Shown here piece after piece: positions 22,465 to 26,126 of a stretch of DNA of 64,000 nucleotides (positions within the stretch are counted from its first letter, which is position 1; the number at the start of each line of letters is the position of its first letter). Both the position numbers and the translations under genes were made by a program. Origin of the DNA: Nocardioides yefusunii (GTDB taxonomy: Bacteria; Actinomycetota; Actinomycetes; Propionibacteriales; Nocardioidaceae). The notes beneath the pieces are model-generated. The model made no database searches and was not told the origin of the DNA. It worked only from the letters and a program-made list of their open reading frames with translations. The stretch lies in assembly GCF_004014875.1 (NCBI RefSeq), contig NZ_CP034929.1, positions 2,604,001 through 2,668,000 on the forward strand, in the 5' to 3' direction.

Positions 22465-24039
22465 TCACTCCCACTCGATGGTGCCCGGGGGCTTCGAGGT
22501 GATGTCGACCGTCACACGGTTGACGTCCTTGACCTCGTTGGTGATGCGGGTCGAGATGCGCTCGAGCAGCTCGTAGGGCAGGCGTGCCCAGTCAGCCGTC
22601 ATGGCGTCCTCGGAGGTGACGGGACGCAGCACGATCGGGTGACCGTAGGTGCGGCCGTCGCCCTGGACGCCGACCGAACGGACGTCGGCGAGCAGCACGA
22701 CCGGCATCTGCCAGATCGTGTCGTCGAGACCCGACTTGGTGAGCTCCTCGCGGGCGATCGCGTCGGCCTCACGCAGCAGGTCGAGGCGGTCCTTGGTGAC
22801 CTCACCGATGATGCGGATACCGAGGCCGGGGCCCGGGAACGGCTGACGCTTGACGATCTCCTGCGGCAGACCCAGCTGGGCACCGACCGCGCGGACCTCG
22901 TCCTTGAAGAGGGTGCGGAGCGGCTCGACGAGCTCGAACTCCATGTCCTCGGGCAGGCCACCCACGTTGTGGTGCGACTTGATCGTCGAGGTGCCGGAGC
23001 CGTGGCCCGACTCGACGACGTCCGGGTACAGGGTGCCCTGGACCAGGAAGCCGACGGTGGTGCCCTCGGGGGCGGCGGCGATGATGTCGGCCTGCGCCTT
23101 CTCGAAGGTGCGGATGAACTCGCGGCCGATGATCTTGCGCTTGGCCTCGGGCTCGGAGACACCGGCCAGAGCGGTCAGGAACTGCTCCTCGGCGTCGACG
23201 ACGACGAGCTTGGCGCCGGTCGCAGCAACGAAGTCGCGCTCGATCTGCTCGGTCTCGTCCTTGCGCATCAGGCCGTGGTCGACGTAGACGCAGGTGAGGC
23301 GGTCACCGATGGCCTTGGTGACGATGGCGGCCGCGACGGCGGAGTCGACACCACCGGACAGGCCACAGATGGCGCGACCGGTCTCGCCGATCTGCTCCTT
23401 GATCCGCGCGATCTGCTCCTCGGCGATGTTGCCGATGGTCCAGGTCTTGCGGCAGCCGGCGATGTTCCAGAGGAAGTGCTCCAGGACGCGCTGGCCGTGG
23501 TCGGAGTGCAGCACCTCGGGGTGCCACTGGACACCGGCGAAGCCACGCTCGACGTTCTCGAACGCGGCCACCGGGGTGCCCTCGGTCGAGGCGAGGACGG
23601 TGAAGCCCTCAGGGGCCTGGGAGACGGAGTCGCCGTGCGACATCCACACGTTGTGGGCCACCGGCATGTCGGCCAGCAGCGTGCCCGGCTCGGAGATGGT
23701 GACCGGGGTGCGGCCGTACTCGCGGTAGCCGTTGTTGTCGACGGTGCCACCGAGGCCCTGGGCCATCAGCTGGAAGCCGTAGCACATGCCGAAGACCGGC
23801 AGGTCGGCCTCGAACAGCGAGGTGTCGATCGACGGGGCACCCTCGGCGTAGACGCTGGAGGGGCCTCCGGAGAGGATGATCGCCTTCGGCTTCTTCGCCA
23901 GCATCTCTTCGACCGGCAGCGTGTGCGGCACGATCTCGGAGTAGACGCGCGCCTCGCGGACTCGGCGGGCGATCAGCTGGGCGTACTGGGCACCGAAGTC
24001 GACCACGAGAACAAGATCGTGCTCAGAGGTCGCAGACAT
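22465..24039 (-). CDS. guaA: GMP synthase (glutamine-hydrolysing)
   Basis: 524 residues. Converts XMP to GMP with ATP and glutamine. N-terminal class I glutamine amidotransferase with catalytic Cys in [11 protein letters not shown] (~85) and the His-x-Glu of WHPEVLHSD (~175); ATP pyrophosphatase domain with P-loop [13 protein letters not shown] (~230); C-terminal dimerisation domain ending [11 protein letters not shown]. Full length for the family. The ATG at 24039 has TAGGAT ending 7 nt upstream and no Shine-Dalgarno sequence, so it is probably leaderless. It forms the end of a purine block with guaB3 and guaB on the same strand, interrupted by choD-gabD2 and glpD. Confidence 0.97.
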
Positions 24040-24046
24040 GCCCCTG

Positions 24047-24052
24047 ATCCTA
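24047..24052 (-). promoter_or_regulatory. -10 box of guaA (leaderless)
   Basis: TAGGAT on the minus strand, 7 nt before the ATG. The same CGATAGGATCA string occurs at the glmS start. Confidence 0.55.
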
Positions 24053-24140
24053 TCGGCCGAGGGCCGTTCGCCTCACCTTCGGGCGTCCGCCGAGGGCGAC
24101 GGCTCGGTCACACCGCACGTCAGCGGTGCTCTTCCCCCGG

Positions 24141-24268
24141 AAATAGCATCAGGACCCGACCGGGAGGGAGGGTTGGTCGGGTCCTGATCGTCCTCGCGGA
24201 TCTAAGTCTGCGTCGGGACGACAGTCCGGGCATCAAAAGGGAGGGAGAGAAGCCCGGACCGGCAGCAC
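24141..24268 (-). ncRNA. Predicted small RNA with two C-rich-loop hairpins (6C-like)
   Basis: In the 344-bp gap between choD and guaA. A minus-strand promoter (-35 GTGACA, 17-bp spacer, -10 GATAGT) points to a start near 24268. The transcript folds into hairpin 1 (8-bp stem 24252-24259 with 24224-24231, loop containing CUCUCCCUCCC) and hairpin 2 (14-bp perfect stem 24175-24188 with 24148-24161, loop AACCCUCCCUCCC), followed by GCUAUUU, so hairpin 2 also serves as terminator. Both loops carry CUCCCUCCC, complementary to Shine-Dalgarno-like GGGAGGGAG. The design matches what is known of the actinobacterial 6C RNA family. Assignment to that family is inferred from the layout, not from an alignment. 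Confidence 0.65.
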
Positions 24269-24272
24269 GTCA

Positions 24273-24301
24273 ACTATCTCTCAGACAGCCAGCGTTGTCA
24301 C
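24273..24301 (-). promoter_or_regulatory. Promoter of the predicted small RNA
   Basis: -35 GTGACA (24296-24301) and -10 GATAGT (24273-24278) on the minus strand with a 17-bp spacer. This is one of the few places in the window with a near-consensus -35 box. The region just upstream is unusually AT-rich. Confidence 0.55.
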
Positions 24302-24349
24302 CCAAACAAGGTAAAGAAACCCTGAATTGCGACCAAGTTTTGGCCTCTT

Positions 24350-24387
24350 GTGACCTACCTGACACCCCACGTGGGTGAGCAGGTCAC
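24350..24387 (-). terminator. Possible terminator at the end of choD
   Basis: Interrupted inverted repeat: GTGACCT / AGGTCAC (24350-24356 with 24381-24387) plus an inner CACCC / GGGTG pair. The right arm overlaps the choD stop codon. Confidence 0.4.
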
Positions 24388-26126
24388 CTGACCTCCACGA
24401 TCGGCAACCTGAGAGCGCCAGGGGCGGCCTCCGGAACGGCCGGAGAGATCGGGGCTACCGGGGCGATCGACCGGTAGGGCTCCCCCAGCGCCGGACGCGG
24501 GTCCGACTCCCCCTTGTTGGGCCAGAACGCCATCGCACGCTCCGCCTGGGCGGTGATCGTCAACGACGGGTTGACTCCCAGGTTGGCCGAGATCGCCGAC
24601 CCGTCCACGACATGCAGACCGGGATGGCCGAACATCCGCTGGTACGGGTCGACGACGCCCGCCTCCGGGGAGTCGCCGATGGCGCAGCCACCGATGAAGT
24701 GGGCCGTCATCGGGCGGTCGAACGGTTCGCCGATGGTGCCGCCAGGCGTCCCACCCATGACCTCGCCCGAGCGACGGGCAGCCTCGTACCCCTGCGGGAT
24801 GAACGACGGGTTGGGTTCGCCGTGGCCCTGGATGCTCGACATCCGCGTCCCGAACGGGGTGCGGACCGGCACGGTGGTGATCGAGTTGTCGCGGGTCTGC
24901 ATCACGAGTGCGATCACCGCACGTTCGGACCAGTGTCTGAGGTCGTAGAGGTCACGGGCCTTCGACCGGTGGGCCCACATCTCCTTGGCCCAGGTCCAGA
25001 CCCGCTTCTCCCCCGGTTTCGGCTCGGCGAGGACGGTCTGGAGCATCGCCATCGCATTGGAGCCCTTGCCGTAGCGCACCGGTTCGACGTGGGTCTCGTC
25101 GTCGGGATGGAACGACGACGTGATCGCGACCCCGTAGGAGTAGTCGACGCCGGAGTCCTTGGGTGCGATCGCCCCGAGGATCGCCTCGGAGTTGGTGCGG
25201 GTCAGCACCCCGAGCCGGTCGGAGACGTGCGGGAGGTCGCCGGAGACCTTCAGCTGGTGCAGCAGCTTCTGGGTGCCCAACGACGCCGCGGAGAAGATGA
25301 CCTGGTCGGCGGTGAACGTCTTCGTCGCCCCGTGCCGCCCACGCCCCAGGCGTGACAGCTTGGCCTTGGTCCAGCGCGCTGTGACCTCGTACCCGCCGCC
25401 GTCCGCCTCGCTGCGCGGGCGCACCCGGGTGACGGTGGTGAGCGGGTGCACCTGCGCGCCGAGGTTCTCGGCCAGGTGCAGGTAGTTCTTGACGAGGGTG
25501 TTCTTGGCGTTGTGACGGCAGCCCGTCATGCACTCACCGCACGCGGTGCAGGTGCGACGCTTCGGACCGGCCCCGCCGAAGAACGGGTCCTCGACCTCGG
25601 TGCCTCGTGCTTGGTCGGGGCGGCCGAAGAAGACGCCCACCGGGGTGGCGTGGAAGCTCTCCCCCACGCCCATCTCCTGGGCGACCTTCTCCATGACGTC
25701 GTCCGACGGGGTGCGCCACGGGTTGGTGACGACGCCCAGCATCCGCTTGGCCTGGTCGTAGTAGGGGGCGAGCTCGCGCTTCCAGTCAGTGATGTGGGCC
25801 CACTGCGGGTCCCGGTAGAACGCGTCGAGCGGCTCGTAGAGCGTGTTGGCGTACACCAACGAGCCGCCGCCGACGCCGGCTCCGGCGAGGATCAGACAGT
25901 CACGGAGCAGGCTGATGCGTTGGATGCCGTACAGGCCGGCCGCTGGGAGGAACAGGTAGCGCTTCAGGTCGAAGGAGGTGTCGGGGAAGTCGTCGTCGGA
26001 GAAGCGGGCTCCCGCCTCGAGCACCCCGACGGAGTACCCCTTCTCGCTCAGACGCAGTGCACTGACCGACCCACCGAACCCCGACCCGATGACGAGCACG
26101 TCGTAGTGCTTCTTCGGGGTTTCCAT
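24384..26126 (-). CDS. choD: ChoD-type GMC oxidoreductase (putative cholesterol oxidase)
   Basis: 580 residues. FAD-binding GMC oxidoreductase. Visible: Rossmann motif VIGSGFGGSVSALRLSEKG at residue ~11, LILAGAGVGGGSLVYANTLY, and the C-terminal GMC signature around HFIGGCAIG and the end GSAISANLGVNPSLTITAQ. It also has a four-Cys cluster CTACGECMTGCRHNAKNT (~190), which looks like a ferredoxin-type motif and is present in mycobacterial ChoD. The whole sequence strongly resembles Mycobacterium tuberculosis ChoD. True cholesterol oxidase activity is unproven for this subfamily. Its start is 3 bp after the gabD2 stop, so the two form an operon. In mycobacteria choD also neighbours guaB3 and guaB2. 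Confidence 0.9.
   Translation of the reverse strand: METPKKHYDVLVIGSGFGGSVSALRLSEKGYSVGVLEAGARFSDDDFPDTSFDLKRYLFLPAAGLYGIQRISLLRDCLILAGAGVGGGSLVYANTLYEPLDAFYRDPQWAHITDWKRELAPYYDQAKRMLGVVTNPWRTPSDDVMEKVAQEMGVGESFHATPVGVFFGRPDQARGTEVEDPFFGGAGPKRRTCTACGECMTGCRHNAKNTLVKNYLHLAENLGAQVHPLTTVTRVRPRSEADGGGYEVTARWTKAKLSRLGRGRHGATKTFTADQVIFSAASLGTQKLLHQLKVSGDLPHVSDRLGVLTRTNSEAILGAIAPKDSGVDYSYGVAITSSFHPDDETHVEPVRYGKGSNAMAMLQTVLAEPKPGEKRVWTWAKEMWAHRSKARDLYDLRHWSERAVIALVMQTRDNSITTVPVRTPFGTRMSSIQGHGEPNPSFIPQGYEAARRSGEVMGGTPGGTIGEPFDRPMTAHFIGGCAIGDSPEAGVVDPYQRMFGHPGLHVVDGSAISANLGVNPSLTITAQAERAMAFWPNKGESDPRPALGEPYRSIAPVAPISPAVPEAAPGALRLPIVEVR

Follow-up and report, generated by a model that had tools for sequence, protein, structure and literature searches.

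The choD-guaA interval and its predicted RNA

In the stretch of Nocardioides yefusunii DNA analyzed here (64,000 nt; hereafter, the window), a small RNA is predicted on the minus strand between guaA and a choD-like gene. Its start and end are predicted positions. All features listed below lie on the minus strand; the evidence for each is given in parentheses.

22465..24039, minus: guaA, GMP synthase, neighbor (NCBIfam PRK00074.1, 762 bits, cut-off 400)
24047..24052, minus: TAGGAT, −10-like box, 7 nt before the guaA start codon (sequence)
24141..24268, minus: predicted small RNA, 128 nt, three hairpins (match to covariance model R1)
24141..24147, minus: GCUAUUU tail 3' of the terminator-like hairpin (sequence)
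24148..24161, minus: stem 3, 3' arm (sequence, fold)
24162..24170, minus: loop 3 motif CUCCCUCCC (exact in 126/133 loci)
24175..24188, minus: stem 3, 5' arm, of a perfect 14-bp hairpin (sequence, fold)
24189..24220, minus: middle hairpin CGUCC/GGACG, arms 24220-24216 and 24193-24189 (fold and helix 2 covariation)
24224..24231, minus: stem 1, 3' arm; stem length 8 bp (sequence, fold)
24239..24247, minus: loop 1 motif CUCCCUCCC (exact in 120/133 loci)
24252..24259, minus: stem 1, 5' arm, GUCCGGGC (sequence, fold, stem 1 covariation)
24273..24278, minus: GATAGT, −10-like (sequence reading and sigma-70-like site scan)
24296..24301, minus: GTGACA, −35-like, sigma-70 type (sequence reading and sigma-70-like site scan)
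24384..26126, minus: choD-like cholesterol oxidase/GMC oxidoreductase, neighbor (NCBIfam CholsOxChoxAB, 563 bits, below the cut-off of 850)

An earlier note, made from the sequence alone, had described a minus-strand promoter, two hairpins with a shared C-rich loop motif, and a short 3' tail at this place, and each of these elements was recovered. The promoter, GTGACA and GATAGT separated by 17 bp (24301-24296 and 24278-24273), was the sole sigma-70-like site between 23900 and 24500, with 9 of 12 matches (shuffles: mean 0.0, standard deviation 0.1). The 8-bp and the perfect 14-bp hairpin are both present, CUCCCUCCC occupies both loops (24247-24239 and 24170-24162), and GCUAUUU (24147-24141) follows the second of the two hairpins; among relatives, the commonest form of this tail is GCAUUUC (29/133 loci). 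The middle hairpin (24220-24189), with its 5-bp stem, had been overlooked in that reading.

The R1 match at the window RNA scored 94.8 bits (E 1.2e-16), with the window sequence (L001) itself among the 24 sequences from which the model was built. Folding of the 146-nt stretch 24275-24130 gave −64.2 kcal/mol (z = −3.04), and none of 200 shuffles was equally stable. A mechanical terminator scan, which accepts loops of 3 to 8 nt and needs five T in eight, found none at the last hairpin because its loop measures 13 nt and few T follow downstream. The plus-strand open reading frame that overlaps the RNA (22639-24378) had no NCBIfam match.

Distribution, structure, and independence from guaA

Whole-genome searches with R1, some of whose 24 source sequences came from a few of the genomes searched, yielded a match in 186/196 Nocardioides genomes and in 169 of the 175 of good quality. 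Five of the ten genomes without a match are near complete (G122, G154, G159, G180, and G214). Across the order, 104/293 genomes matched, every one belonging to the Nocardioidaceae and together covering six genera: 84/85 Nocardioides genomes and 20/38 genomes of other genera of the family. A second model, R2, built from 62 sequences, matched 30/394 genomes class-wide, again in Nocardioidaceae only, five of them genomes missed by R1. The closest named relatives of the window GuaA carry the label Nocardioides. When 80 of 317 guaA loci were retained, all from named genomes, R1 matched 15 at an E value of at most 1e-4 (13/13 Nocardioides, one Marmoricola, and one Aeromicrobium); most of these 15 were already part of R1, with the Aeromicrobium locus lying outside it. 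The RNA is widespread in Nocardioidaceae. Two R1 matches were found in only two genomes among those tabulated. G065 has two RNA matches, and the second copy in G101 (L161) has its own promoter of the BldN type described below, in a 3.4-kb stretch holding neither guaA nor choD.

For comparative analysis, 146 model hits were reduced to 135 unique sequences and then to 133 by removal of two antisense hits (L169 minus and L195 plus), which overlie true hits and both remain in the 79-row model-fitted alignment. The compensatory changes in related genomes that the earlier note had proposed as a check were observed as two-sided pair changes in all three stems. In a MAFFT alignment, 11/27 pairs had two-sided changes and 93.0% of pair cells were standard, the structure tested having been derived from one of the sequences in that alignment. 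Model-fitted alignments, which lean towards the structure tested, had such changes at 16/27 and 23/27 pairs, with all three helices contributing. When partners were slid by one column as a control, pairing fell to about half and covariation was far lower.

While the stems vary, CUCCCUCCC is exact in loop 1 of 120 and in loop 3 of 126 of the 133 loci, and its mean unpaired probability in the predicted ensemble was 0.84 (loop 1) and 0.98 (loop 3) over 124 loci, in 2 of which the two motif copies were found side by side. The motif is gone from one loop or both in some loci (for example, from loop 1 in L148, L153, and L160) and is altered in both loops of L165 and L167. The spacing between the loops falls into all three classes modulo 3 (51, 41, and 32 of 124 loci); therefore, no reading frame is conserved. 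A coding interpretation, for which a short open reading frame is available in single genomes, was rejected for this reason.

The predicted RNA is a selected RNA gene, and these comparisons demonstrate computationally its existence, structure, covariation, and loop constancy. Chance hairpin formation in GC-rich DNA could be argued from the high GC content and from a single-sequence fold z score of only −3.04; retention in 186/196 genomes and covariation in every stem have already refuted it, and its probability is negligible.

In 108/133 loci, guaA follows the RNA on the same strand, with its start no more than 40 nt away in 24 of the 108; as the RNA also ends in a terminator-like hairpin, it could be read as a cis-acting leader or attenuator of guaA. 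However, RNA and guaA point in opposite directions in 13/133 loci, with the BldN-type site still in front of the RNA, which is therefore not the leader of guaA. These inverted loci (L025, L029, L141, L146 to L152, L154, L155, and L159) come mostly from other Nocardioidaceae genera. The remaining 12 loci have no guaA in the fetched stretch, partly owing to contig or stretch ends. Between RNA and guaA lie 17 to 1431 nt, with more than 500 nt in 10/108 loci, and the extra copy L161 has no guaA beside it at all. Furthermore, guaA has a −10 box of its own: TAGGCT, TAGACT, TAGGAT, or TAGAAT stands 6 to 7 nt before the start codon in 78/119 loci, compared with 3/4840 random places, a count in which real loci were allowed several guaA start codons and random places one position. 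Some of the remaining guaA loci carry similar boxes outside the search pattern, such as TACGAT. This spacing points to a leaderless guaA transcript made from a promoter of its own. The leader reading was rejected on the grounds of inversion, distance, and the −10 box, and we regard it as very improbable; independence of the RNA from guaA is a computational observation.

The BldN-type promoter and the presence of bldN

The BldN site has been published as CGTAACN16CGTTGA (PMC2375139). Upstream of stem 1, CGTAAC and CGTTG were matched at 10 or more of these 11 bases, with a permitted spacer of 15 to 17 nt, in 127/133 loci; the spacer was 16 nt in 120 of the 127. The occurrence of the published sigma-BldN site before these RNA loci is new here. 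Letter-shuffled upstream sequence reached at least 10/11 in 4/2850 draws. Genome-wide, such sites numbered 5 to 13 in six genomes with bldN (reversed control, 0 to 3) and 1 to 3 in four genomes without it (reversed control, 0 to 3). The promoter consensus of the Nocardioidaceae RNA is common to the sigma-BldN regulon of Streptomyces (bldM, rsbN, and the chaplins). Transcription of the RNA, and the sigma factor that would be used in any one species, are predicted from sequence. Among the matches listed in a search of the open-licence literature, no title or abstract mentioned a small RNA under BldN.

In Streptomyces, BldN is known for regulating aerial growth. In G003, a 259-amino-acid ECF sigma factor had as its best PDB match chain A of 6dxo (E 9.8e-49; next match, 7e-14), listed as 'RNA polymerase ECF-subfamily sigma factor'; we take 6dxo to be the BldN-RsbN complex. 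A bldN ortholog with at least 53% identity (E 1.9e-65 or better) was found in 55/60 Nocardioidaceae genomes, a hand-chosen set that includes all known whole genomes with a lost promoter. In 29 of 30 loci (the best 30 of the 55), a BldN-type site lies 7 to 97 nt 3' of the bldN stop codon, before a gene that we took by eye as the anti-sigma gene. The same arrangement, with a site before rsbN, occurs in Streptomyces; in S. venezuelae, rsbN adjoins bldN, and its promoter depends on BldN (PMC4255298). Counting against a ready assignment, that review recognized convincing BldN proteins in morphologically complex genera alone, with others less than 40% identical.

Further sites were noted elsewhere. 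In two genomes, a BldN-type site also occurs about 13 kb from bldN (L312 and L314); in L312 it precedes a gene that by eye resembles a secreted lytic transglycosylase, and in L314 the script chose another frame. In L320, L321, L322, and L325, a conserved ABC ATPase gene, by eye of the Mce type, is preceded by a palindrome-like CGTAAC...GTTGTTAC, and L316 has only the CGTAAC...CGTTG part before such a gene. The palindrome-like form is perhaps a transcription-factor site and not a BldN promoter.

No bldN ortholog was found in the window genome (G000; best score, 43.5 bits) or in G023, G083, and G204, all at least 99% complete, and these four genomes appear to have lost the sigma factor. Their RNA promoters score 6 to 8 of 11 against the BldN site, inside the shuffled range, the window RNA reaching 8/11 at best. 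In loci with bldN, 51/52 scored at least 10/11, and one scored 9. G016 lacks bldN yet has a BldN-type site, in a genome that is 87% complete. Altogether, 57 of the 60 loci were scored, as three share their core sequence with others. The association between bldN and the site gave a Fisher p of 6e-5, a value uncorrected for kinship and with G016 entered as a counterexample.

L024, a fifth site-less locus, lies outside the set tested for bldN. By eye, each of the five shows an NATNNT hexamer at nearly the same distance from stem 1 (to within about 4 nt): GATAGT (window), CATAGT (L002), CATCAT (L024), CATGAT (L177), and CATGAT (L197); L002 retains CGTAAT-16-CATAGT. A quickly built 34-row tree groups four of the five in a supported clade with L001 apart, and a single clade for all five was not rejected (p 0.08). 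One or two promoter-loss events are therefore indicated, and the association of promoter loss with bldN loss is thus suggestive and not many times independent. The link between the promoter motif in relatives and bldN is a computational observation; in the window's lineage, a sigma-70-like promoter would have replaced the BldN site.

Relation to 6C and other C-loop RNAs, and proposed function

The earlier note had proposed a 6C homologue or a similar anti-Shine-Dalgarno RNA. The evidence strongly supports its central claim of an independently promoted small RNA carrying two C-rich loops, and of the two identities the second fits best. The RF01066 covariance scan that the note had called for gave no match between 24000 and 24400 up to an E value of 10, none at the gathering score in the whole window, and none up to an E value of 1 in the loci of 16 relatives. 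The window genome has three weak RF01066 hits elsewhere (E 0.55 to 6.5), of which the best (L093) was read as an ordinary terminator-like hairpin. Although RF01066 finds 6C in 16/198 genomes of the phylum, it found none at an E value of at most 0.001 in 39 whole genomes (25 Nocardioides and 14 others of the order); in that search, the control matched in Corynebacterium glutamicum only, and below the cut-off, with the first pass scoring part of the candidates, and therefore its reach is limited.

A highly diverged or relocated 6C, truly homologous to RF01066, would share with this RNA an actinobacterial host and two C-loop hairpins of which the last is terminator-like. Given the RF01066 result in those 39 genomes, this may be the sole RNA of that kind there. 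R1 also scores 12/16 6C loci at E values of 2e-5 to 0.14 (49 kb searched), although shared form alone could give such scores. In addition to the failed RF01066 matches at the locus and in its relatives, several differences count against homology. 6C has two hairpins, whereas the Nocardioides RNA has an extra middle one; in 14/16 6C loci, both loops contain an unbroken run of at least six C (by eye), compared with CUCCCUCCC here; and none of the 16 6C loci has a BldN-type site within the preceding 60 nt (by eye), whereas most Nocardioidaceae loci have one. Likewise, 6C lies close to Ms1 in mycobacteria (PMC9569102), whereas the window RNA sits in the choD-guaA interval. The Streptomyces RNA scr3558 has been identified as 6C (PMC8539372). 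Overall, we consider homology unlikely and classify the RNA as a family apart from 6C, though alike in working type. Rfam, the RNA family library searched, does not contain the Nocardioides RNA, and no prior description was found among the matches listed in the open-licence literature.

By its form, the RNA would be of the anti-Shine-Dalgarno type. Across 12 genomes, GGGAGGGAG was counted 442 times and its reversed control 386 times, the RNA's own sites being included in both; complementary 9-mer sites thus had no clear genome-wide excess in these genomes. Together with a motif that is near constant in both copies, this would suit loops that bind a protein, as a sponge or scaffold, and not mRNAs. 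However, tested RNAs of the same form pair with mRNA, and in mycobacterial B11 (6C), either loop suffices to repress an mRNA whose 5' untranslated region contains six G (PMC10470900); protein binding is in our judgment distinctly unlikely. Feedback on rsbN was considered as well and received no support, as the predicted energy of duplexes between the loop and the presumed start region of rsbN varied from −5.0 to −16.2 kcal/mol over 30 loci, in a set where some open reading frame starts are likely misplaced.

The explanation that we favor combines a non-coding RNA gene, sigma-BldN ancestry, a promoter switch, a terminator hairpin, and anti-Shine-Dalgarno loops, and we assign it as a whole a probability of about 0.78. 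In this explanation, a free-standing gene of roughly 100 to 135 nt, widespread in Nocardioidaceae, would ancestrally have been read by RNA polymerase carrying sigma-BldN; the lineage of the window would have lost bldN, and a sigma-70-like promoter would now drive the RNA. The transcript would fold into three hairpins, the last acting as the terminator, and hairpins 1 and 3 would display the same single-stranded CUCCCUCCC in their loops. The most likely partners of this motif would be purine-rich ribosome-binding sites of the GGGAGG type on several mRNAs, whose translation it would block, a mode of action reported for B11 (PMC10470900) and proposed for alpha-r14 (PMC10746234). A more specific version, in which a new small-RNA family is a core sigma-BldN target that stands in for 6C in Nocardioides and was kept through promoter replacement after bldN loss, seems to us somewhat favored by the evidence.

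If true, BldN, a developmental sigma factor, would gain a post-transcriptional arm outside Streptomyces. A strongly conserved RNA that shares the promoter type of the anti-sigma gene offers a direct handle on BldN outside that genus, and the natural promoter change in bldN-less genomes provides a ready test of whether the amount of RNA or its timing by BldN is what counts.

With this RNA, a further lineage joins those that have multi-hairpin, C-loop RNAs resembling anti-Shine-Dalgarno regulators, suggesting recurrent origins of the form. The alphaproteobacterial alpha-r14 or cuckoo RNAs (RF02344; NfeR1, CcsR) likewise have three hairpins with a conserved loop motif and varying stems, described for alpha-r14 as an ultraconserved anti-Shine-Dalgarno motif, CCUCCUCCC, on freely varying stems (PMC10746234). 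In alpha-r14, CCUCCUCCC occurs in all three hairpins, compared with CUCCCUCCC in two of three here, and an RpoHI/RpoHII promoter serves the CcsR operon (PMC10253847), compared with the BldN-type site of the Nocardioidaceae RNA. RF02344 was the nearest Rfam model in 4/16 relatives scanned (E 0.001 to 0.84), with a best score among the 16 of 38.8 bits against a gathering score of 58.8. It had no match listed at the window locus up to an E value of 10 and none in six whole genomes, in which the control matched nowhere either, so that this last result carries no weight. The likeness to RNAs of another phylum is most likely convergent. Within Streptomyces, scr5583 is a conserved small RNA with a C-rich (67%) terminal loop (PMC3765725); it resembles the Nocardioides RNA in its conservation and C-rich loop, a likeness drawn by description alone, and is described with one loop. 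Its level peaks during aerial growth and sporulation in two species and during vegetative growth in a third (PMC3765725).
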